Origin: Bacteroidota bacterium
GTDB taxonomy: Bacteria > Bacteroidota > Ignavibacteria > Kapaibacteriales > UBA2268
Reading direction: 5' to 3'
Length of the DNA: 36,408 bases
Assembly (NCBI GenBank): GCA_024278075.1
Contig: JAJRTW010000014.1
Coordinates: 1-36,408, forward strand
In this document: positions 3,730 through 27,390 of the stretch, piece after piece
Layout of the letters: each line of letters begins with the position of its first letter
Position numbering within the stretch: position 1 is the stretch's first letter
The notes under the pieces: generated by a model
Seen by the model: only the letters and a program-made list of their open reading frames with translations
Told to the model about the DNA's origin: nothing
The model's database searches: none
Position numbers and translations under genes: made by a program

Positions 3730-4031
3730 GTTCTGTCAGTTGTTACAACTGGCAAATGGCGGCAGTTTTTATATCGCCAGTTGTTACAACTGGCAGAACA
3801 TAAATTCAGGCAGGTTGCGAACCTGCCACTACACATACATTGATTGAACTGTAAAAAATAGTTATCAATCATTTATGAGATGGCGGCACTAGTGTCGTGT
3901 CAACTGTACTATGTCATTCCTGTAAAAACAGGAATCCGGTATTCCAACACAATCAGGTTATATCAAGATGGATTCCGGCTCTTCGGCCGGAATGACAGAT
4001 CAAATGATCCGTCATAGTATGCCTGACACGT
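3730..4031. repeat. Composite palindromic repeat block between nuoG and nuoH
   Basis: In order: gttctgtcagttgttacaac through a second copy of the CAGTTGTTACAACTG palindrome ending in gcagaac (3730-3799); the hairpin GGCAGGTT-cgc-AACCTGCC-like arms (3809-3827); ATTCCTGTaaaaACAGGAAT (about 3914-3933); GATTCCGGctcttcgGCCGGAAT (about 3971-3995); then a 23-nt segment (4009-4031, ending GCCTGACACGT) that recurs perfectly, inverted, at 34766-34788. Much of the same order is repeated at 25671-25851. No reading frame of note is present. Confidence 0.8.
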
Positions 4032-8326: not shown

Positions 8327-11300
8327 CTATCTATTTATCAATTTCTCGACTATTTGATTATCGCCGTATTTGATAATCATCAGATATATCCCCTTCGGGC
8401 TGCCGGCAAGGTCAATTCGCTTGCTGAACATTCCGCCGGCCATAGGTTCTGAGATGGAAACAACTTCTTCGCCAATCATATTTGTCACCGATATTATAAG
8501 ATTCCCCGGCCTTAGAAGATTCATCTCGATATTGAAATATCCCTCGAAAGGATTCGGATGGATTGAAATGCTCTCAATATCCAAATCATTAACGGAAGAA
8601 ACATTGTAAGGATAAGGATCGGACTTGGAAGAGCATCCATCTTCATTATACACATCTACTTCATATAATCCATCGGCAATCGGCCTGAATACCTGGCTGA
8701 CAGCCCCGGGAATAATTTCTCCGTTACGATACCATTTATATGACGCCGCATCGGAAGCACGCAGTTCATCATTGTCAAATGTAATCGTGGGCTTGTCGGG
8801 AGATGAGCCAATGAATACTTCATAATTCTCAGATTCAGCAGTGCATCCCTTAGAGGTTGTTGCAATCACACTGTAGTTCCCCGGTTCGGTGGTCGTCAGT
8901 TTCCTTGATGTCGTACCATCGGACCATTGATAGCCAATAAAACCAAATGATGCCGACAAAGTAACGCTTTCGCCGTCGCAGAGGGGATTATTCCCCTTTA
9001 TATTGATTCTCAAATTGGGCACATTCAATACTGAAACATGAACAACTTTTGATTTTGGCATACATTCATCGGATTCAGGTATGATAAGTGTAAACGACCC
9101 TTCTTCTGTTACGGTAATGCTTTTTGTAGTTTCACCGGTGGACCATAAATAATTAGGATAGTCCTTATCGGCTTCGAGGACAATCGACTCACCCTTGCAA
9201 AACTCCAGATCGCCGATAACTTTAATAATAGGTGCATCAGCATCACATTCCAAGATGTCTGTTTCCCAAACTCCCCTGCCATAAGTGGACACCCGCAGCT
9301 TCCTTGTGCTGTAATTAATTTCAAGTTCGGAGATGGAAACATGAGGCATATCCTCTCCAAAGGGCAGCCAATACGCTGAGTTATAGTCCGAATAATATAC
9401 TCCGATGTCGGTGCCGATATATAGCCTGTCGGGTGAATCTTTCTGATAAACGATGCAATTTACCGGCACATTTGGCAGGTTGCCGGAAAGATTCGACCAT
9501 TCCTCGCCATCGTACTCTACTACTTTATTTCCTTCAGTAAATCCGGATTTAGTCACAAATATTCTTCTCGGGTTTGCCGGATCCACAGCAACGTAAGTAA
9601 TTGCTGATGATGAGCTTAAAATCCTTTCCCAATTCAAGCCTCCGTCATAAGTTGCATTCAGCACATTTGTAGTGGCAGCATAAATAACGCTTGGATCCGA
9701 CGGAGATATTGCCATCGACCTAAAAGTGCGGTTGCTGGTGAAGTTCGATATTCTTTCCCACGAGCCGTTGCTGCCGTAGTTTCTGGATCTCCATATATTA
9801 GTGTATCCGGCGTACAGAATGTTCGGATTGTTGGGGTCGAGGATATAAGGAGTCACCCAGGCCGAATTCTCATTTGTCATGCTTTGGGTAAGCATGCTTA
9901 AAAAGCGGCCGTCGCTAAGCCTTCTTCTTTTAAGGCTGCCTCTTTGCGATGAAGCATAAACCCTGTTGTCATTTGTCGGGTCAATGATGGCTTCCATCCC
10001 GTCGCCACCCGAGGCGGCTCCCCAATTCCCATTGGAATGCCAGCTTGTGCCATTGTCCTGGGCCCCGGCATAAAGAAGAGTTGGAGAAATAGTTGAAATG
10101 CCCAAGCGGTAGAACTGGGTTATCTCAAGCCCCCTGCTTATGCTTTGCCAGCTTGCACCTCTATTGGTTGATTTGTCCAGGCCTCCGTCATTGGCCGAGA
10201 TGAACAAGGAGCCGTCATCGTTGAAAAGCAAGTCATGGTGGTCAAAATGGATATATGGCTTGCCGCCGCCGCCGGTAACCAATGTCCAATTGGACCCGCC
10301 GTTAGTTGATTTCCATATATTGATACCACCTGTGTATATTTCGTTTTCATTCTGCGGGTTCACCGCAATGGCCAGGTCATAGAATCCTTGCCCTCCGCTC
10401 CCCTGCCCATTCAGGCTCCAGCCAAGAATATTCGGAGAATTATTATAAATTGCCCTCACCTCAAACTCATTGCTCGGATTTGCATTTAAGACCATAAAAG
10501 AGTGAAAACCATTGTCGGCCGATTTGGACAGTACGGCATAAACTTTGTTGGGATTGGCTGTTGAAACGGCCAGTGCTATCCTGTTGGCTTCCGGGTACGA
10601 TTCAATAAAGCTCCATGTTTCGCCCGTATCGTCGGAATAATACATTGCGGCTCCGCCAGACCTGCTATAGGTTGATGCATATATCTTATCCGGTTGGCCG
10701 GGCAGGAACTCCATATCCCTGAAATATATAGATTGAAAAGTATCATACCACGTATCGCCGCCATCAATCGATTTTTTAATCCCCGAACTTGTGCCGGCAA
10801 TTAATATATTCTGATTGGATGGATGAACAAGAATTCTTGCAACAAGCCCCCTTCTCTCAATGGACTGGTTATAGCCGGTCGTATTCCAGGTATTGCCGCC
10901 ATCGGTTGTTTTCAGGATACCAACGCTGTATGTGCTATACTGAGTTGACCCGCTCCCGTTGGCGTCTCCCGTTGCAACATAAACTACATTCGGGTTCGAT
11001 GGAGCTAAAGCAATATCGGAAACACCCATCGAAAGAATCCCGGTGAAAGGGAAATTAATCCACGATTGGCCGCCATTTGACGATTTCCACACACCACCGC
11101 CGGCCGATCCCGCCCAAATTTCATTATCATTGTTCGGATTTAACCTGACTATATTTACCCTTCCGTGGCCACTTATATTTGTGTGAAGATTAGGCCCGAG
11201 GTTATTCCATTTTCTTGCAAGCGTCCGGTTGCCTTGCTTGGAATTATTATTCAAAGCAGTAACATATTCGAACGCATCGTATATCATCTGCGGGTCAGGG

Positions 11301-11548
11301 AAACTCCCATCCTTGCCAACTCGCGGCTCCCAGAAATATTCCCACCGTTTATATTGCTTCCAACCGGGAAGGTTCTTGCCGCCGGCTGCTTCCAGGGCCT
11401 GGTTATATGATCGCTTATAATCAAAAAAATTAGGATTATCTATTTTTGCTAATGTTTCGTTCATCAGCTGAGAATTCAATTTAGATCCGGACAGAAAGAA
11501 AAAGCCCGATAGAAGAAAGAAAAGATATAATTTTATATATGGCCGCAT
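8327..11548 (-). CDS. Secreted BNR/sortilin-like propeller protein with T9SS sorting domain (paralogue 3)
   Basis: The 1073-aa protein should be exported by Sec and then across the outer membrane by the type IX system. Residues 1-27 are a signal peptide ending LNSQ. A conserved segment (KQYKRWEYFWEPRV, DGSFPDP) lies near 63-86. A long propeller region to about 770 holds repeats of the S-x-D/N-G-G-x-x-W type (KSSNGGQSW, KTTDGGNTW, KSIDGGDTW, KSTNGGSNW) as in BNR and Vps10/sortilin or Ycf48-like folds. Ig-like repeats with YLWSTGETTKSITV and YQWSDGTTSRKLTT follow. The last 80 residues are a type A T9SS tail (SIHPNPFEGYFNIEMN ... PKGIYLMIIKYGDNQIVEKL). Substrate is unknown: binding of a surface or extracellular polymer is plausible, glycosidase activity is unproven. 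Confidence 0.9.
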   Translation of the reverse strand: MRPYIKLYLFFLLSGFFFLSGSKLNSQLMNETLAKIDNPNFFDYKRSYNQALEAAGGKNLPGWKQYKRWEYFWEPRVGKDGSFPDPQMIYDAFEYVTALNNNSKQGNRTLARKWNNLGPNLHTNISGHGRVNIVRLNPNNDNEIWAGSAGGGVWKSSNGGQSWINFPFTGILSMGVSDIALAPSNPNVVYVATGDANGSGSTQYSTYSVGILKTTDGGNTWNTTGYNQSIERRGLVARILVHPSNQNILIAGTSSGIKKSIDGGDTWYDTFQSIYFRDMEFLPGQPDKIYASTYSRSGGAAMYYSDDTGETWSFIESYPEANRIALAVSTANPNKVYAVLSKSADNGFHSFMVLNANPSNEFEVRAIYNNSPNILGWSLNGQGSGGQGFYDLAIAVNPQNENEIYTGGINIWKSTNGGSNWTLVTGGGGKPYIHFDHHDLLFNDDGSLFISANDGGLDKSTNRGASWQSISRGLEITQFYRLGISTISPTLLYAGAQDNGTSWHSNGNWGAASGGDGMEAIIDPTNDNRVYASSQRGSLKRRRLSDGRFLSMLTQSMTNENSAWVTPYILDPNNPNILYAGYTNIWRSRNYGSNGSWERISNFTSNRTFRSMAISPSDPSVIYAATTNVLNATYDGGLNWERILSSSSAITYVAVDPANPRRIFVTKSGFTEGNKVVEYDGEEWSNLSGNLPNVPVNCIVYQKDSPDRLYIGTDIGVYYSDYNSAYWLPFGEDMPHVSISELEINYSTRKLRVSTYGRGVWETDILECDADAPIIKVIGDLEFCKGESIVLEADKDYPNYLWSTGETTKSITVTEEGSFTLIIPESDECMPKSKVVHVSVLNVPNLRINIKGNNPLCDGESVTLSASFGFIGYQWSDGTTSRKLTTTEPGNYSVIATTSKGCTAESENYEVFIGSSPDKPTITFDNDELRASDAASYKWYRNGEIIPGAVSQVFRPIADGLYEVDVYNEDGCSSKSDPYPYNVSSVNDLDIESISIHPNPFEGYFNIEMNLLRPGNLIISVTNMIGEEVVSISEPMAGGMFSKRIDLAGSPKGIYLMIIKYGDNQIVEKLINR

Positions 11549-11694
11549 GATTCACTCTTAATAATTAATACTATACGTTCTTGCGAATTTCAAAATATAT
11601 TAGAAGACATTCTATTGCTATGAAAAGTTACAATTCGTAACAATATCGTAACAATAAATGCTGCTATTTTAAATATTGAAACGTTCTTAATAGT

Positions 11695-14600
11695 TTATTG
11701 TTTTATAATCAGTCGATGGACTATGCCGCCTTGATATTGCAAAATCAAATAATAAATCCCGCTTGAGAAATTATTGATATTTATTACTCCAGAATAGTAT
11801 CCGGGGTCGATAAGCACTTTATTATCAAGCACTAAGCGGCCTGTAACATCTGTAAGTTTTATTCCCAGGCTGCCGGGCTTTTCAAAATATGATTCTATTG
11901 CAAACTCATATTCGGCCGGATTCGGATTGATTCTGGCCGGGAAAGCATCTTTGTTTTCATCAAAATCATATTCATTTCCGAAGCCAATTCGAATAATCTC
12001 CGATTTCACCTTGCAGCCATCATCGTCAATTATTTCAGCCTGATAGCCGCCCAATTTAATAATTCTAATCGATTCGGCATTGGAATTATCAATATCAGTG
12101 CCGTCCAGTATCCATCGCACTATTTTGCCGGGGCTAACCATTAAAGAATCACCAATTTTCGTGATTTCCGGTTTTGAGGGCTCGGGCAATATTTCGAATT
12201 CGAACTTACTGCTTATGCCAAAGCATCCGTTGGCGGAAGTGGCCGAAACGAAATACTGGCCGGCGCTGTCCAGCGTTGTCTGGCGGGCCGTATCGCCGTT
12301 GGACCATAAATATTGAATCTCCGCACCGGGCATATTCGCAACCGTTGCCCTCACTGCCAGCCGGCCGCCATAGCATACCGGATGCCGGCCAAGAATTGCA
12401 ACTCTTACATTTGGCGATTCCACCACCCTAACGTTAATAATATCCGATACCGCTCCGCAGCCATTCTTCACATTAGTCTTAATCCCATTAATCTTAATCC
12501 CATTAGTATCAATCGCCGTAACGTAATACCGGCCTGCTTCGGTAATTTCCAAAGACGGGCCTGTTTTTCCATTGGACCATATATATTCCAAACCGCCCGG
12601 ATTAGTTACCGCAACGGTCAATGTGCCGCCTTCACAAATTATTAATTCATTGGAATCGCCTATCTCCGGTTTACGGACACTGCAATCATTCACTTCGGCC
12701 TCCCATACGCCATTGCCATAGGTTGCAGCCCTTAATTTGCCCGATAGATAATTAAGTTCCAGCTCGCTGATAATAGCTACCGGCATGGCTTCATTAAATA
12801 ATAGCCAATCCCTTTCGGATTCGGAATACCTGAATACGCCAATGTCCGTACCGATATATACTTCGCCGTCTTTCACTATATTAGATACGATGCAATTCAC
12901 CGGGAAATTCGGCAGGCTGCCCGAAATATTCTTCCATTTGCCGTTTAATAATTCATAGATTTTCTCATTCGGATAATAACCGGAAAGGCCGGCCCATATA
13001 TGCTGCGGGTTGTCGCTGTCGACTGCAATCGATGTGATTAACTGCTCGGGCGATATAAGCAAGTCCCAGCTGCGGCCGCCGTCTGAGGTCATAAACAGGC
13101 CGCGCTCATTTGCAAAATAGATATAATCCGGATTGCCTGGTGCTATGGCCAAGGCGTTTACCGTAGGATTATTCGGATAATCGAAATCGGATGTTTTCTT
13201 CCAGCTGTCTCCCCTGTCGGTTGATTTCCAGATATTCTCGTATCCGAGGTAAATCACGGACGGGTCGGCGGGATGCAGCAGAAAATTCGTCAGCCAGGGC
13301 TTTCGCTCCTTATGCTCGAAATCGCTGATGGCCTTATTGAAATAATTGCCGCCGTCTTCGGAGCGGAACAAAGCCCCTTTCTGCATCGAGATATATACAT
13401 ACTGCGGATTCTCGTAGTCCACGGCACATTCCATCCCGTCGCCGCCGCCAACCGGAATCCATTCACCATTGGCAAACAGCATACTGCCATTGTCCTGGGA
13501 GCCGCCGAATATCATATTGTCATTGAGCGGATTGCCGCCTATTCTATAGAATTGTGTTATATTCAGGCCAAAGCTTATATTTTCCCATCCGATATTTCCC
13601 AAGCCGATATTTCCCAAGCCGTCGCCGCCGCTCTTAAATATCCCGCCGTCATTAGCGCTGAATATATCGCCGGTGTGCGGCGAGAATATCAAGCAATGAT
13701 GATCCACATGAATGTCTTTGCTCACCTCGCTCCATGATGTGCCGCCATCGGTGCTTTTCCATACCGGAATTCCGCCTATGTAAATAATATTCTCATCGGC
13801 CGGCGAAATGCCGATAGAAAGGTTGTATGCACCTTGCGCTCTGATCAGGCTAATATCTTCGCTTATTTTGATTTCAGTCCAATTATTTCCTTCATCAGCG
13901 GAAACGAACAGGCCACCGAATACAGACAAGTCGGCCGTTGAAATTAATGCCCATATTTTATTTGGCTTGCTATCGCAAACGGCAAGGCGAATGCGGTTCG
14001 AATTGCTAAATGACACTGCTTCCGTCCATGTATCGCCCGCATCGGTAGATTTATATATACTGCATTTTTTGTTATTATTATTATCAACAGTAAAGAAAGT
14101 GGATGTGTACATTACGTCAGGATCGCCGGGCTTATAGATTATTTCTTTAAAATACAAGCTGTCAGATGTCAGCCTCCACAGCTCGCCGCCATCGGTGCTT
14201 TTATAAATACCTTTATTCGTCGAAACGATAACATTATCAGCATTATCTGGCATTACAAGGCAGCCGGCAATTACAAGCCTGTCGGTGAATTCAGCTGCAA
14301 AACCCGTCAGGCTCCACGTTTGGCCGCCATCATCAGAGCGGAGCAGGCCCGAAGAATATCCCCTTGTCATTATTCCGGCTTCGGCATCGCCGGTGGCAGC
14401 ATACATAACATCCGGGCTTGACCTCGAATATGCAATTGCGCTAATCCCCAATGCTACGAACCCGTGCAGATTGATTCTCTCCCAATTCCTGCCATAGTCA
14501 ATAGATTTCCACAAGCCGGATGTTGCCGTCCCCACCCAAACAATATCGGGGTTGTCGGGATGGAAGGCGATGCAATTAATCCGCCCGTTGCCGTGTCTCT

Positions 14601-15000
14601 CATATTTATCTGTTGACAACTCCCTGGGGCCAATAGGCGTCCATGAATTATCATTTCCATGAATACGATTTGGTTCTTTCCTGCTACGGTACTTCTGATA
14701 TTCAGCATTAAGAACCGATTGATCGGGCAGGCTGCCATCTGGCAAAGTCCTGAATTTCCAATAATACTCCCACCGCTTAAATTGCTTCAAAGAAGAGCTG
14801 TCGGTTTTATTCGACTGCTCCCATTTATTATAAAAGCTCTCACTGATTCTATTAAAATTAATTTCATTGACATTATAGCGGTCAATGATTTCGGCTTGCG
14901 GATAGCACGCAGTTGAAGCTGCAATAAATAATAATAAGGTAAGAAATAAGAATGCAGGAAATAAGAATAATGTAGTGGATATTTTCTGCGGCAGGCTCAT
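11695..15000 (-). CDS. Secreted BNR/sortilin-like propeller protein with T9SS sorting domain (paralogue 2)
   Basis: This 1101-aa protein has the same architecture as its two neighbours: a signal peptide (MSLPQKISTTLFLFPAFLFL...), the KQFKRWEYYWKFR / DGSLPD segment, the FHPDNPDIVWVGTATSGLWKS entry to the propeller, many SxDGGxxW turns (KSTDGGELW, KSTDAGDTW, KSTDGGTSW), the DHHCLIFSPHTGDIFSANDGG stretch shared with paralogue 3, Ig-like repeats (YIWSNGKTGPSLEI, YLWSNGDTARQTTL) and a T9SS tail beginning RINPNPAEYEFAIES. It differs by two short in-frame tandem repeats: GLGNIGLGNIGWENI in the propeller and NGIKINGIKTN in the first Ig-like repeat. These look like recent slippage and are absent from the paralogues. 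Confidence 0.9.
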   Translation of the reverse strand: MSLPQKISTTLFLFPAFLFLTLLLFIAASTACYPQAEIIDRYNVNEINFNRISESFYNKWEQSNKTDSSSLKQFKRWEYYWKFRTLPDGSLPDQSVLNAEYQKYRSRKEPNRIHGNDNSWTPIGPRELSTDKYERHGNGRINCIAFHPDNPDIVWVGTATSGLWKSIDYGRNWERINLHGFVALGISAIAYSRSSPDVMYAATGDAEAGIMTRGYSSGLLRSDDGGQTWSLTGFAAEFTDRLVIAGCLVMPDNADNVIVSTNKGIYKSTDGGELWRLTSDSLYFKEIIYKPGDPDVMYTSTFFTVDNNNNKKCSIYKSTDAGDTWTEAVSFSNSNRIRLAVCDSKPNKIWALISTADLSVFGGLFVSADEGNNWTEIKISEDISLIRAQGAYNLSIGISPADENIIYIGGIPVWKSTDGGTSWSEVSKDIHVDHHCLIFSPHTGDIFSANDGGIFKSGGDGLGNIGLGNIGWENISFGLNITQFYRIGGNPLNDNMIFGGSQDNGSMLFANGEWIPVGGGDGMECAVDYENPQYVYISMQKGALFRSEDGGNYFNKAISDFEHKERKPWLTNFLLHPADPSVIYLGYENIWKSTDRGDSWKKTSDFDYPNNPTVNALAIAPGNPDYIYFANERGLFMTSDGGRSWDLLISPEQLITSIAVDSDNPQHIWAGLSGYYPNEKIYELLNGKWKNISGSLPNFPVNCIVSNIVKDGEVYIGTDIGVFRYSESERDWLLFNEAMPVAIISELELNYLSGKLRAATYGNGVWEAEVNDCSVRKPEIGDSNELIICEGGTLTVAVTNPGGLEYIWSNGKTGPSLEITEAGRYYVTAIDTNGIKINGIKTNVKNGCGAVSDIINVRVVESPNVRVAILGRHPVCYGGRLAVRATVANMPGAEIQYLWSNGDTARQTTLDSAGQYFVSATSANGCFGISSKFEFEILPEPSKPEITKIGDSLMVSPGKIVRWILDGTDIDNSNAESIRIIKLGGYQAEIIDDDGCKVKSEIIRIGFGNEYDFDENKDAFPARINPNPAEYEFAIESYFEKPGSLGIKLTDVTGRLVLDNKVLIDPGYYSGVININNFSSGIYYLILQYQGGIVHRLIIKQ
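12466..12510. repeat. 15-bp degenerate tandem repeat inside T9SS paralogue 2
   Basis: aatcccattaatctt (12481-12495) is followed by aatcccattagtatc (12496-12510) and preceded by cttcacattagtctt (12466-12480), giving three 15-base units of decreasing match. In the protein this gives NGIKI/NGIKT/NVK. Being 15 bases long, it keeps the frame. Confidence 0.75.
13576..13620. repeat. 15-bp tandem repeat inside T9SS paralogue 2 (GLGNI)
   Basis: gatatttcccaagcc is present twice in perfect tandem (13591-13605, 13606-13620). A diverged copy, tatattttcccatcc, precedes it at 13576-13590. Translated on the minus strand this is GLGNI-GLGNI-GWENI, between the propeller phrases KSGGD and SFGLNITQFYRIG. The other two paralogues have no such insertion at this point. 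Confidence 0.85.
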
Positions 15001-15105
15001 AGTGGTTCGGGTAATCGGATTGTTTTTGATGAATAAAATGAGTTATGCTCCAATAGTTGTTACAATAGCATGAAGTATAATTTCTCCGTAGGGGCTCGAA
15101 ACGGA

Positions 15106-15243
15106 GCCGATCGTGTCTATAGTTCGACTCCGCTCACTATGACATTTGAATAGTCACTCTGTGCCCTTTCTGAGCCATGCCGATCGCGTCTATAGTTCGA
15201 CTCCGCTCACTATGACATTTGAATAGTCACTCTGTGCCCTTCG
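15106..15243. repeat. 73-bp direct tandem duplication in the gap between T9SS genes
   Basis: A block of about 65 bases starting gccgatcg(t/c)gtctatag at 15106 is repeated at 15179 with one internal change. Each copy includes the palindromic core ttcgactccgctcactatga, a variant of the REP-like hairpin seen at 6050 and 33146. The duplicated unit probably spread by slippage or unequal exchange within the 325-base gap. Confidence 0.9.
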
Positions 15244-15325
15244 GCAGCGGGACGGTTTGGAACCGCCCCCTACAAATTGGTTAAAGCAAAAATCGTGTAA
15301 AGCAAATATCGTATAAATCGAATAT

Positions 15326-18300
15326 CTACCGCTTAATAAACTTACTATATATATTTATCGTCCGGTTGGCAAATTGCATTAGATATATTCCGACAGGCAG
15401 ATACTGCAAATCAAAATCTTTTTCGATTCTCCCGGCGGCCGATTCCAGATCATACGTAATTATCTCCCGCCCGAACACATCGCTTATTATTAAATTGCAA
15501 GGCCCTGGTTGCAGTCCGGCAACGGATATACTAAAAACTCCCGTATTCGGATTGGGGATAATGGATAAAGACGGATTGACTGGCAAGTTGCCGCTGATCG
15601 AAGAGGTAACATCAAACTCATCGGAGAATGTGCCACAGCCTTCAGCGCTGATAGCCTCGACAGTGTAAGGCCCGATTTCCGACATTTCGAACGATTGTTC
15701 ATTAGCTCCGGGTATCAATTCACCTTCAAAATACCATTGGTACCGCCCGGCCACGGTGGATTTTAACATTCTGCCCTTCTGGGTTATCTCCGGTTTTGGC
15801 GGGCGCGGCAGGAATTCGATATGATATTCACCGGCATCGGTATGGCATCCGTTGGCCATTATTGCCCTGGCGCTGAACACTCCGCTTTCGGATACAGTTA
15901 TTAATCTTGTTGTATCGCCGTTCGACCATAGCAGTTCATCATACTCGCCGTCAATCATTAATGTCAATGTATCGCCTATGCAATAGGGTGCATCCGACGA
16001 AAAGGAAATATCTACATCAGGAGCATCCAGGACATTTACCGTTATTTCCTCCGAATAGCCTAAGCAGCCCTCGGCATCTTTCACTACAAGTCCGTAAACT
16101 CCCGAACTTTTGGCCACTATCCTTTGCCCCGTTTCGCCGTTTGACCATAAATAATTATCATAATTGTCGGCGGCCTCGATATAGACACTGTCGCCTTCGC
16201 AGAATTCAAGCTCGCCCGTTACAATTAACTGCGGCCGTCCCAGCGTGCATTCGTTAATATCGGTCGACCATAGCCCCCTCGAGAACGTGCCTGCAAGCAA
16301 TTTGCCGGTATTATATTGAATTTCGAGTTCGTTTATTACTATATTAGGCATTCCCTGGTAAAAAGGCAGCCAGTCGTCCATAAAAAAATCACGGTAATAC
16401 ACTCCGAGGTCGGTGCCAACAAACAGCTTCCCTTCAGTGCCTTTTGGGCATACTATCGTATTGGCCGGCACCATGGGCAGCGAGCAGGTTATATCAACGG
16501 CCAGCCTATCGTTTATTTCATATACTTTTCGGCTGCTTGAGTAATTCGATGCCGTCAGCCAAACCCGGAATGGGTTCGTCGGGTCTACCTCTATGTCGGT
16601 TATTCTATCGGAACCCATAAAAATAGTTTCCCAGCTATCGCCTCCGTCGGCCGTCCGGTACAAATCATTGCCTTTGGAAGCATAAATTACGTTGGAATCC
16701 GATGGTGCTATAATTATCGATAATATAATAGATTGATTGCTGACAAAGGATGATGTTTTATTCCAGCTATTGCCCTTATTCGTGCTTTTCCATATATTCA
16801 CATAGCCGGCCAACAACACATCCGGGTTGTGGGGAGAAATAATATAAGGCGTTACCCATGCGCCGGCTTCCTTAGTGGTGCTTCTGGAAATAATAAGTCT
16901 ATACGAATCTCCTCCGTCTTCGGATTTGTAAATTGCACCTCGCTGGTAGGCAGAATAAATAATATTCGCATCGGCCGGGTCAATAGCACACTCGGTGCCA
17001 TCACCACCCATGATATGTAACCACGAGCCATTCCTAAGATAATTAGTGCCGTTGTCCTGCATCCCCGTGATAACCGAGGCGGAATGCGGCGAGGCCCCAA
17101 TGCGATATATCTGTGCTATCGGCAGGCCATCGGACATATCCTTCCACGTCGTTCCATTATCTTCTGATTTATATATACCGCCGTCGTTTCCGGAATACAA
17201 TATACCCGTGCCCGGCTGAAAGCCAAAGAAATGATTGTCCGCATGAACATACGGCAGGCCGGATTTCCCCTGCCACTCCGATATGACTGTCCAGCTTGCA
17301 CCGCCGTCGGTGGATTTCCAATTATTAATACATCCGGCAAAAAGAAGATTGGAATTCACCGGGGATACAGTAAAAGCCAAAGCATACCATCCAAGTCCGA
17401 AAATTGATGACCCTTCTGTCGTATAGTCGAAAAGATTGGGCGAATTGGACATTAAGTCCCAATTGTTACCGCTGTCCGATGACTTGTATAAACCCAAGAA
17501 AACGCTGCTGCCGGCTTGCGAACATAAGGCATAAACCAATGTAGGGTCGCTGGGGCTAACGGCCAGTGCAATCCTGTTGGAATTCAAGACGAAGGTTTTC
17601 TGCTGCCAGGTTTCGCCGGCATCCCTTGATACAAAATATTTCGCATTGCTTGAATATGTCGACGCATAAATCGTATTGGCATCGCCCGGCTTGAACTCCA
17701 TATCCCTGAAATAGTAATTCGGCGACACCATTTCCCAATTCTTCCCGCCGTCAGTTGTTTTGAATATCCCTTTTGTGGTTGCTGTGTAGACTATATCGGG
17801 CGTATCGGGGTGAATGATTATCCTCGAACAAAGAGCCTTCTCAATAATATCGCGCCTATACTCGGTTTCATCCCAGGTCTTGCCTCCATCTGTGGATTTA
17901 AGCACTCCCAGGCTGTATGCCCTTGTCATGCCAATACCGTTGGCATCGCCGGTTGCCATGTACATTATGTCGGGGTTGGACTGAGAAATTGCGATGTCGG
18001 TAATGCCAATAGTTAGGAATTGCGTGACGGGAACTTCCTGCCATGTGGTTCCGTTATTGTTGCTCAGCCATGCTCCGCCGCTTGCGGCGCCAACCCAGAT
18101 AATATTAGGGTTGGACGGATGGAAAGCAACGCAGTTGACGCGGCCCAGTCCGGATGATTCGAAAGGCATAATATTCTGCGGTTTAGAAAATGGCCCTAAA
18201 GGCTGCCAATTTGCAGTTTCACCCTGGATGGAATTGCCTTTCCTTTGATGCTGAATTTGCTTCCATTGCCGCAATATTTCTTTGCCATCCGGGAAATTAC

Positions 18301-18544
18301 CATCGGCATCCACACGAGCCTGACAAAATTCTTCCCATCTTTTATATTGCTTATATCCACTGCCTTTTTCCGGCGATTTCCCATCCCAATACTCCTCGAA
18401 GGATTGCCGGATTGAATTGAAATTCTCACGCCTCTCGCTTGCGAGGCTTTCAACCCAGGGCTGTGCTAAGAGCTGAGAATTGCAGCATAATGCTATAATA
18501 ATAGCTATATATATCATAATTGCTGATTGTGTTTGTAGTTTCAT
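15326..18544 (-). CDS. Secreted BNR/sortilin-like propeller protein with T9SS sorting domain (paralogue 1)
   Basis: The first of the three in transcription order, 1072 aa. It has a signal peptide ending near LLAQPW, the KQYKRWEEFCQARV / DGNFPDG segment near residues 64-87, the VAFHPSNPNIIWVGAASGGAW propeller entry, SxDGGxxW repeats (KSTDGGKTW, KTTDGGKNW, KSTDGGASW, KSEDNGTTW, KSEDGGDSY), Ig-like repeats (YLWSNGETGQRIVA, LLWSNGDTTRLITV) and a T9SS tail (LSIIPNPNTGVFSIS ... PVGIYLMQFANRTINIYSKFIKR). It lies directly downstream of motA on the same strand after a 417-base gap, so it is probably a separate transcription unit. Tandem copies suggest gene duplication. Confidence 0.9.
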   Translation of the reverse strand: MKLQTQSAIMIYIAIIIALCCNSQLLAQPWVESLASERRENFNSIRQSFEEYWDGKSPEKGSGYKQYKRWEEFCQARVDADGNFPDGKEILRQWKQIQHQRKGNSIQGETANWQPLGPFSKPQNIMPFESSGLGRVNCVAFHPSNPNIIWVGAASGGAWLSNNNGTTWQEVPVTQFLTIGITDIAISQSNPDIMYMATGDANGIGMTRAYSLGVLKSTDGGKTWDETEYRRDIIEKALCSRIIIHPDTPDIVYTATTKGIFKTTDGGKNWEMVSPNYYFRDMEFKPGDANTIYASTYSSNAKYFVSRDAGETWQQKTFVLNSNRIALAVSPSDPTLVYALCSQAGSSVFLGLYKSSDSGNNWDLMSNSPNLFDYTTEGSSIFGLGWYALAFTVSPVNSNLLFAGCINNWKSTDGGASWTVISEWQGKSGLPYVHADNHFFGFQPGTGILYSGNDGGIYKSEDNGTTWKDMSDGLPIAQIYRIGASPHSASVITGMQDNGTNYLRNGSWLHIMGGDGTECAIDPADANIIYSAYQRGAIYKSEDGGDSYRLIISRSTTKEAGAWVTPYIISPHNPDVLLAGYVNIWKSTNKGNSWNKTSSFVSNQSIILSIIIAPSDSNVIYASKGNDLYRTADGGDSWETIFMGSDRITDIEVDPTNPFRVWLTASNYSSSRKVYEINDRLAVDITCSLPMVPANTIVCPKGTEGKLFVGTDLGVYYRDFFMDDWLPFYQGMPNIVINELEIQYNTGKLLAGTFSRGLWSTDINECTLGRPQLIVTGELEFCEGDSVYIEAADNYDNYLWSNGETGQRIVAKSSGVYGLVVKDAEGCLGYSEEITVNVLDAPDVDISFSSDAPYCIGDTLTLMIDGEYDELLWSNGDTTRLITVSESGVFSARAIMANGCHTDAGEYHIEFLPRPPKPEITQKGRMLKSTVAGRYQWYFEGELIPGANEQSFEMSEIGPYTVEAISAEGCGTFSDEFDVTSSISGNLPVNPSLSIIPNPNTGVFSISVAGLQPGPCNLIISDVFGREIITYDLESAAGRIEKDFDLQYLPVGIYLMQFANRTINIYSKFIKR

Positions 18545-24411: not shown

Positions 24412-25542
24412 TTACTGAATAATCAGCTCGCCCTGCAGCGACCCGGCTTCCTTTAATGCCTGGAATATGGCTATTAAATCACGTGGTTTCACTTGTAATA
24501 AATTTAAGGCGTCAGCAATATCAGCAACCGAAGCACCAGTGAATTCCAATGGAGTCGCCGGGTTCAATTCCTCCTGAGTTTCGATAATTGCCGATTCAAC
24601 CGGACGCGGCGGAAATATCGTAAATGGTGCCGGTTGCGCCACAACTACCTGCCTCTGAATGAATATATCAAGCCCGCCGTGAGCTATTACCGCCGGCAAT
24701 AGTTCAACATTTCCACCGACTACTATTGTGCCTGTCCTTTCGTTAATCACCACCCTTGCCACTGGGTCTGCAATTACATTCAGCGCCTCTATTTGGGCAA
24801 TATATTGCATTATTTGCATCTGCTCGGATCCATCAGGGAATTTCACTTCAATTGCCCCCGCATCTATGGGTGTGGCTGAATTAGCCAAATTTGGCGAGCC
24901 GTTAATTGCTGCCGCCACCCTTGTTGATGTGGTGAAATCGGGATCACGCAATACTATTCTAAGCAGCTGGTTGGTTACGAATTTAGCATCCACAGCCGAA
25001 TCTAATATAAGCCCGTTCGGCACCCTGCCTGACGTCACGAAATTCCTTCCTATCCTTGACCCCAATGAACGGTAATCATAACCACCAACCGAAACAGCTC
25101 CCTGGGCGTTTCCTAATATTGTGCCTTTTGAAGTTGACATCGGAGTCATCAGCAGCACTCCGCCCTGCAGAGAAGTCGCATCACCAAGCGAAGAGACAAG
25201 AACATCAACTTTGGAACCGGCCTTTAGGAATTGTGGAATCGTTGCGGTAATCATCACGGCCGCCACGTTTCGCATTCGTATATTTTTATTTGGCGTGGTA
25301 AGGCCAAACCGCTTAAGCATATTTAATACTGATTGGTTCGTATACGACGTTAGCTGGTTATCGCCGGTCTGGTTCAGGCCAACCACCAAACCGTAGCCAA
25401 TCACCTGAACGCCGCTCACGCCTTCGATAGCAGCTATGTTCTTTATCCGCGCTCCCGATGTAGGATTATACGAAAGAACAAAAGCAACAAGTGCCAGCAT
25501 GATAAGTTTAAGTGACGATATTTTATTTAGATTGTAATTCAT
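24412..25542 (-). CDS. flgI: Flagellar P-ring protein FlgI
   Basis: FlgI polymerises into the periplasmic P-ring around the rod. After a signal peptide (KLIMLALVAFVLSYNPTSGA) the mature start ARIKNIAAIEGVSGVQVIGYGLVVGLNQTGD matches the family's R-I-K-D-I-x-x-I-x-G-x-R-x-N-x-L-x-G-Y-G-L-V-x-G-L-x-G-T-G-D pattern. Later signatures are VSSLGDATSLQGGVLLMTP and ERTGTIVVGGNVEL. The C-terminus ends with SVADIADALNLLQVKPRDLIAIFQALKEAGSLQGELIIQ, as usual. I chose the ATG at 25542 because it places the signal peptide at the N-terminus; an in-frame ATG at 25605 would add 21 residues that come from an upstream repeat motif. Confidence 0.95.
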   Translation of the reverse strand: MNYNLNKISSLKLIMLALVAFVLSYNPTSGARIKNIAAIEGVSGVQVIGYGLVVGLNQTGDNQLTSYTNQSVLNMLKRFGLTTPNKNIRMRNVAAVMITATIPQFLKAGSKVDVLVSSLGDATSLQGGVLLMTPMSTSKGTILGNAQGAVSVGGYDYRSLGSRIGRNFVTSGRVPNGLILDSAVDAKFVTNQLLRIVLRDPDFTTSTRVAAAINGSPNLANSATPIDAGAIEVKFPDGSEQMQIMQYIAQIEALNVIADPVARVVINERTGTIVVGGNVELLPAVIAHGGLDIFIQRQVVVAQPAPFTIFPPRPVESAIIETQEELNPATPLEFTGASVADIADALNLLQVKPRDLIAIFQALKEAGSLQGELIIQ

Positions 25543-25587
25543 TATTCCAAATATTAACCATAGGCCTTGTTTTAAAGAAAGCTTTTC

Positions 25588-25602
25588 CCACGAGCTAAAG
25601 CA
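25588..25602 (-). promoter_or_regulatory. Conserved upstream motif TGCTTTAGCTCGTGG ahead of flgI
   Basis: Identical to the 15-mer upstream of nuoH (3650-3664) and in the same orientation relative to the gene, 46 bases before the chosen flgI start. It is extended on one side by GAAAA(G). Its repetition before two unrelated genes, each beside a block of the same palindromes, argues that it belongs to a shared repeat element; a regulatory role is possible but unsupported. Confidence 0.5.
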
Positions 25603-25670
25603 CATAGCTATTTATTCAATTGCCAAGTACTGAGCATGGGTGCATATATATCCAGTTATTTTTGTTCTGC

Positions 25671-25851
25671 CAGTTGTTACAACTTGCAATATAAAAACTG
25701 TTGTTATTAGTCAGTTGTAACAACTGACAGAACGTTTGAATCATAGAATGACGGAACATTTGAATTGTCTTTCCTGCGAAAGCAGGAATCCAGTGTCTCT
25801 ATGCTATTTGGTTGTATCAAGATAGATTCCGGCTCTTCGGCCGGAATGACA
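25671..25851. repeat. Composite palindromic repeat block between flgH and flgI
   Basis: In order: ttctgccagttgttacaact and the facing copy cagttgtaacaactgacaga (to about 25736), TTTCCTGCgaaaGCAGGAATCC (about 25770-25791), and GATTCCGGctcttcgGCCGGAATGAC (about 25825-25850). This is the same order as at 3730-3997 between nuoG and nuoH, with the 15-mer CCACGAGCTAAAGCA again at the left edge. The block sits in a 333-base gap inside the flagellar cluster. Confidence 0.8.
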
Positions 25852-25875: not shown

Positions 25876-26481
25876 TTAAAACAGCATTCGCAGAAATTTG
25901 GTTATTAATCCCGGTTCCTGTATCTCTGTGATATTGCCTTCGCCTTCAATCGTCAATGTCAGATCCATAATATTATATGACAAAACCGAATTATCTGGCT
26001 GAATATCAACCACCCGGACAATTCCCGAAATCATTATTTTCTGCGTTTCGCCGTTAATTTTGGTAGTCCTCTCGCCCTTGATATTCAGGTTGCCATTATC
26101 CTCCACACTTTCGACCTTTGCTGATAATCTCGACCTAATCCTCTCGCTGCGTGAATTCTTCCCCCTTGCCCTAAAATCATTGCCACTGCCAATGCCGAGA
26201 TCTATCTTTGTCGGCCCGCTTTCAGAGCCAGTGCTCAGGTCAAATCCGGCATCTAAATCAGTTGAGCGTCCTTCGGTGGTTGAAGCGCTGTTGTCGGCTT
26301 TAGTATCTTCGATTATCAGCACCATAAGCGCATCGCCTTACTTAAATGCCTTCACATCCGAGAACAAGGAACGGGTATTGTTCTGGACGAACTGGGCGTT
26401 TAGATCATCAACAAAAAAACAATTCATACAGAATAATGCTATGATAATAAAGGCCAATATTTTCGCTTTCGATTTATTCAT
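25876..26481 (-). pseudogene. flgH: Flagellar L-ring protein FlgH, split by an in-frame TAA
   Basis: FlgH forms the outer-membrane L-ring. From the ATG at 26481 the frame reads a signal peptide (MNKSKAKILAFIIIALFCMN, ending near DDLNA), then TRSLFSDVKAFK, then TAA (26338-26340), then GDALMVLIIEDTKADNSAS in the same frame to the normal C-terminus (GIVRVVDIQPDNSVLSYNIM and GLITKFLRMLF). FlgH homologues continue straight through this point (SLFSD-x-K-A-x-x-x-GD-x-x-x-V-x-I). Including the stop position, the gene is about 201 codons, the usual length, so a single base change or assembly error explains it. A restart at ATG 26325 would lack the signal peptide. Unlike many FlgH proteins the leader lacks a clear lipobox before the predicted cut. 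Confidence 0.85.
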
Positions 26482-26557: not shown

Positions 26558-26632
26558 GCTTATGGATTCTGAAACGAGTTCAGAATGACATTCTCACAAC
26601 TCAATCCCGACATTCTCACAACTCAATCCCGA
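26558..26632. repeat. REP-like hairpin followed by a 22-bp direct duplication
   Basis: GGATTCTGAAacgagTTCAGAATGAC occupies about 26563-26588. It is followed by the unit beginning cattctcacaactcaatccc at 26589 and again at 26611, a perfect 22-base tandem copy. Then come further short near-repeats (acctaatacc, acctgatacc). All lie in the 180-base gap between flgA and flgH. Confidence 0.85.
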
Positions 26633-26661: not shown

Positions 26662-27390
26662 TCATCTCCCCGCCACAGCAACACTGCCATCAATATTAAC
26701 AATGCCCTTCAGCACATTGCTGCCGCCGTCCCTCATAACTTTAATTTCATCGCCGATAGCTGCATCACTAAGCGCCGCACCGGAGGCTTTAATCCTGACA
26801 CTCGGCGTTTGCACAACTATAACAACCTTATCGCCGCGGCTGATTATTTTTTCACCTTCCAGCATATTCCTCTTAATCACCGCACCTTTCGAAATATGCG
26901 AGGCACTTTTGACTCCGGCAATTTCATTGAGTGTTGGGATTTCACTGGCCGATAAATCGGTAATATCCATTCTTGCCAATGAAATATCGGCAGATTCAAT
27001 CGTTGTCCCTTTTGCAATTCGTTTGGAAGCAGTTGGAACACGCCCGAAAATTTTTATCCTGTAGGCAATCGGCACCCTTTTGATAACCCTTCCATTATGC
27101 ATGAACTCAATATTAACCTTGCACAATCCCCTTAATAAAGATTTATTCGCCGTGCATCTTGCCGTGACGCCATCTTGCTCGAATTCCTGGTCGAACACCA
27201 CCTGCATGCATTCGGTTTCAATATCGCCGGCCACATTCTTAAGGATATAATTTTCACAAGCCGCTTCGAGCCTGCCACCCGGGAAAGTTGATTTCGCTTC
27301 GGACTCATAAGACAACAAAAGCAGAATCGCCGTAGACAATCCCGCCAAAGTTAATTCCCTCAATATGCCTTTGTGAATCCTAAACATCAT
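26662..27390 (-). CDS. flgA: Flagella basal body P-ring formation protein FlgA
   Basis: FlgA is a periplasmic chaperone needed for P-ring assembly by FlgI. The 242-aa protein has an N-terminal hydrophobic leader (about residues 10-28). The C-terminal SAF domain is clear: VPTASKRIAKGTTIESADIS, the I-P-T-L-N-E-I-A-G-V-K segment, RGDKVVIVVQTPSVRIKASG and the ending GDEIKVMRDGGSNVLKGIVNIDGSVAV, which matches the family's V-x-N-x-x-S-G-K-x-V-x-G-x-V pattern. Three bases separate it from flgG, so the two are surely co-transcribed. Confidence 0.93.
   Translation of the reverse strand: MMFRIHKGILRELTLAGLSTAILLLLSYESEAKSTFPGGRLEAACENYILKNVAGDIETECMQVVFDQEFEQDGVTARCTANKSLLRGLCKVNIEFMHNGRVIKRVPIAYRIKIFGRVPTASKRIAKGTTIESADISLARMDITDLSASEIPTLNEIAGVKSASHISKGAVIKRNMLEGEKIISRGDKVVIVVQTPSVRIKASGAALSDAAIGDEIKVMRDGGSNVLKGIVNIDGSVAVAGR

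Follow-up and report, generated by a model that had tools for sequence, protein, structure and literature searches.

A lone in-frame TAA in the flgH gene of a Kapabacteria-type metagenome draft is one of a scatter of single stops in conserved genes

Three described situations lie closest to the locus considered here. The first is the flagellar L-ring protein FlgH (PF02107) itself, to which the gene corresponds as a colinear full-length match, with flgA and flgI as its neighbors and with the SLFSD...GDA core conserved, but from which it differs in having one in-frame TAA, at codon 48. The second is the nonsense pseudogene or 'internal stop' gene of draft annotation, with a single stop in a conserved gene that is otherwise intact; the flgH stop resembles these, as do several others in this draft, and is known here from the consensus. 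The third is stop-codon recoding (codes 4 and 25, and ochre suppressors), which shares with this locus the conservation of a gene beyond its internal stop; the draft described here differs, however, in that its long ORFs end more often in TAA than in either other stop codon, internal stops of all three kinds are present, none of the tRNAs found has the anticodon UUA, and it has release factors.

The window analyzed is one whole contig of 36,408 bases, belonging to a 3.74-Mb, 275-contig metagenome-type draft that is 97% complete. The flgH frame lies on the minus strand (26481-25876), and its translation begins MNKSKAK...SLFSDVKAFK, is interrupted by TAA at 26338-26340, and continues with GDALMVLI... 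through a complete FlgH C-terminus. A first-pass annotation had noted this TAA at codon 48 with the remainder in the same frame, and both the translation and a Pfam match past the stop bear this out. The features of the locus are as follows.

26341..26481, minus strand: flgH 5' part, codons 1-47, with a signal-peptide-like N-terminus and SLFSDVKAFK; aligns with the start of the relatives' FlgH
26338..26340, minus strand: in-frame TAA, flgH codon 48, read from the sequence; the column is never a stop in relatives
25876..26337, minus strand: flgH 3' part, the rest of FlgH in frame with a normal stop (Pfam FlgH)
26662..27390, minus strand: flgA-like gene, intact, upstream of flgH (Pfam ChapFlgA, E=4.4e-23)
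24412..25605, minus strand: flgI (P-ring), intact, downstream of flgH (Pfam FlgI, E=1.9e-108)

Taken alone, the part of flgH 3' of the TAA matches the FlgH profile with E=6.8e-35 over positions 27-170 of 172, and the 47-amino acid part before it, when searched alone, matches no family; the whole frame matches at 5.6e-40 over positions 10-170, with the TAA inside. Where FlgH would have an unbroken frame with an N-terminal export signal, the consensus has a TAA. A search of the whole genome with the FlgH profile finds this 209-amino acid frame as the sole flgH, and no second copy. Alignment with relatives shows no insertion, deletion, or frameshift across the stop, and the homology, which is in register on both sides, far exceeds chance. 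Roughly 10 kb separate the TAA from the nearer end of the contig. The other flagellar genes of the cluster, which the first-pass annotation had described as intact, are indeed open (flgA, flgI, flgG, flgF, flgJ-like, flgN, flgK, flgL-like, and motA), as are flagellin genes outside the window, and there is therefore no sign that the flagellum is being lost, an option that the annotation had also listed.

FlgH scores above the cut-off in 44 of 60 related genomes, the source genome included, and in the remaining 43 the gene is free of stops. In these 43 the residue aligned with the TAA is V, I, E, K, A, Q, P, or T, a variable and tolerant site adjoining the conserved GD; none of the 23 columns that are invariant among the relatives is violated by the FlgH described here. 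A profile search of a second collection, which partially overlaps the first and consists mostly of Candidatus Kapaibacterium and Ignavibacteria drafts with some more distant bacteria, yielded 73 flgH loci, again with no stop in any; about 70 related flgH genes are thus without a stop at this position. A family naturally broken at this point, which had been suggested as grounds for regarding the locus as two genes, is therefore not seen among either the 43 relatives or the 73 loci. The nearest FlgH proteins among the relatives compared are 63-67% identical, and these relatives all lie outside the source genus; a direct search of the second collection, genome_contigs, returned no close flgH relatives, and a profile search of viral_contigs returned none at all.

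The flgH stop is not alone. A coding-potential scan was run over approximately 1.0 Mb (1.005 Mb) of the draft, taken as stretches, and candidates were checked by alignment to NCBIfam and Pfam families and to solved structures, and by tblastn searches of relatives. At least eight further conserved, non-flagellar genes are each interrupted by one in-frame stop that falls within a single homologous domain or gene, so that the single event envisaged in the first-pass annotation does not hold. The genes, with the position and identity of the stop, are these.

mutS, L093:8441-8443 (G000:C155), TAG
rpoN, L089:1574, TAA
ferrochelatase, L121:7297, TAA
inositol monophosphatase, L083:2123, TAG
LOG-like protein, L082:19160, TGA
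PLP-dependent cystathionine gamma-synthase/lyase-like, L118:6160, TAG
NUDIX protein, L134:1423, TAA
FG-GAP protein, L124:13885, TGA

These are spread over different contigs and contain no frameshift, and those that were compared residue by residue are otherwise colinear with their homologues. The mutS TAG occupies a position that is Glu or Asp in 20 aligned relatives, and among the 60 genomes searched an in-frame mutS stop of this kind is present only in the draft itself; a stop is flagged in just one further copy (G038:C185), which is split into halves that overlap, and the mutS of G014 (G014:C110) is in two overlapping pieces in the same manner, both apparently being frameshifts. Ferrochelatase is unbroken in all five of the relatives that possess it. 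Several further candidates from the scan, among them DegP/ABC transporter (L127), TonB receptor (L087), and ParA/NifU (L094), were dropped as natural gene boundaries, and a long surface protein (L122), whose stop may be real but is spanned by no family, was left out of the count. A codon-model frameshift scan was too noisy to be of use, with most hits placed where genes naturally end or where the coding score drops locally. The 130 kb with homology to the control relatives contain three internal stops that are real, and not one frameshift. The control relatives themselves have one confirmed in-frame stop in 0.518 Mb, in a DUF559 gene (L167), as compared with nine lone stops in the 1.005 Mb of the draft, an excess that is suggestive only and not statistically firm (one-sided p ~0.1).

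The flgH stop is thus one in a scatter of lone stops, not specific to the flagellum, and of an ordinary kind. The first-pass annotation had put forward an assembly or sequencing error or a fresh nonsense mutation, and these are still the best two explanations. We favor the first with moderate confidence, that the TAA is a consensus base error or a base introduced by strain mixing, as with the other lone stops scattered through the draft. The TAA would then reflect the substitution of a single base in the consensus sequence of a fragmented Kapabacteria-type draft, most likely through base error or because a minority or mixed-strain base entered it, and lone stops of this kind would number roughly ten per megabase; the base would be absent from living cells, or from most of them, and the real flgH of the organism would probably be an ordinary intact L-ring gene. 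This explanation is favored because the scan finds core genes that are hit and yet are colinear and undecayed apart from one base, because FlgH is likewise without any other decay, and because all of the lesions found are substitutions that generate all three stops; stops without a frameshift in 130 kb is the pattern expected of short-read substitution errors. Several considerations count against it. The stop lies well inside its contig, and the excess over the control relatives is not statistically firm. If the nine nonsense changes arose from random substitutions they correspond to about 2.8e-4 substitutions per base, and ~3e-4 per base is a high rate for an Illumina consensus of good coverage; also, a genome with some thirty nonsense pseudogenes would be nothing unusual.

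The second explanation, that the stop is a real and recent nonsense mutation, is possible but the less probable of the two. The sampled strain would lack FlgH, perhaps with the mutation segregating in the population, and a functional L-ring and motility would probably be lost with it, with the remaining flagellar genes of the cluster still intact. Nonsense mutations are a common natural occurrence, the absence of secondary decay in flgH fits a very young one, and the confirmed stop in the control DUF559 gene indicates that such lesions do occur in the group; it is this confirmed stop, together with an excess in the draft that is no more than suggestive, that keeps a real mutation in contention. 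However, it requires that flgH, mutS, rpoN, ferrochelatase, inositol monophosphatase, and more have been lost in one free-living cell, and that all of these losses are very recent and were followed by no other decay. At the sites whose ancestral residue can be inferred, moreover, most of the changes look like transversions, which is not the signature to be expected of a mutS mutator. Literature searches returned nothing that alters the reading of the flgH stop, and whether base error or ordinary nonsense mutation, it most likely represents no new biological trick. The main value of the case is cautionary: a lone stop in a metagenome draft should be weighed against the draft-wide count of stops before loss of motility or recoding is inferred from it.

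A more elaborate variant is that the lineage is a real mutator, its mutS cut by the TAG, and that a burst of recent core-gene nonsense mutations has included flgH. Were the stops real, the draft would represent an uncultured, mutator-like lineage in the course of losing core functions. We regard it as improbable, as the best-assigned sites suggest mostly transversions, and a predominance of transversions is not what mismatch-repair mutators leave behind.

Read-through of the UAA, either programmed or by a suppressor tRNA, would yield full-length FlgH, and the frame after the stop does remain open and conserved. It is nonetheless very unlikely, and neither recoding nor suppression is supported. 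In a 0.8-Mb sample with 501 long ORFs, the terminator is TAA in 235 (47%), TAG in 137, and TGA in 129, and since the internal stops of the draft include TAG and TGA there is no one codon that is frequent inside genes and depleted at their ends. A search for the suppressor tRNA that the first-pass annotation had recommended looking for found no UUA anticodon among 39 tRNAs, a set that also lacks tRNA-Phe and is thus incomplete. RF1 and a second release factor-like gene, by inference an RF2-like paralogue, are both uninterrupted, folding of the RNA on either side of the stop is no stronger than that of shuffled sequences (z=0.28), and no relative has a stop at this site. The judgment that genome-wide recoding is unlikely is therefore sustained, and the read-through option offered beside it is not.

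Equally unlikely are two functional genes, a 47-amino acid secreted peptide and a leaderless FlgH begun at an internal ATG (26325; ORF 25876-26325) a few codons past the stop, given that none of the relatives examined is split here, that the downstream piece has neither a signal peptide nor the conserved SLFSD motif, and that the short piece by itself belongs to no recognizable family.

Several other features of the window and draft are of note. A 22-nt unit (GACATTCTCACAACTCAATCCC) is present as a tandem pair at 26587-26630, between flgH and flgA. An intergenic REP-like palindromic repeat with the core AGTTGTAACAACTG occurs in the window at 1198-1211, 3737-3791, and 25671-25726, frequently as two inverted copies with a spacing of about 42 nt; it recurs 49 times in 1.0 Mb of draft sequence, never inside long ORFs, and is absent from 0.52 Mb of relatives. 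The genome has three matches to a Y1 transposase, which is a possible source of the repeat. Adjoining the flagellar cluster, at 8327-18544 on the minus strand, are three consecutive and related very large genes (~1070-1100 aa), in whose products repeated Asp-box-like 'S.DGG.TW' motifs and a sorting-like C-terminal end can be recognized by eye.
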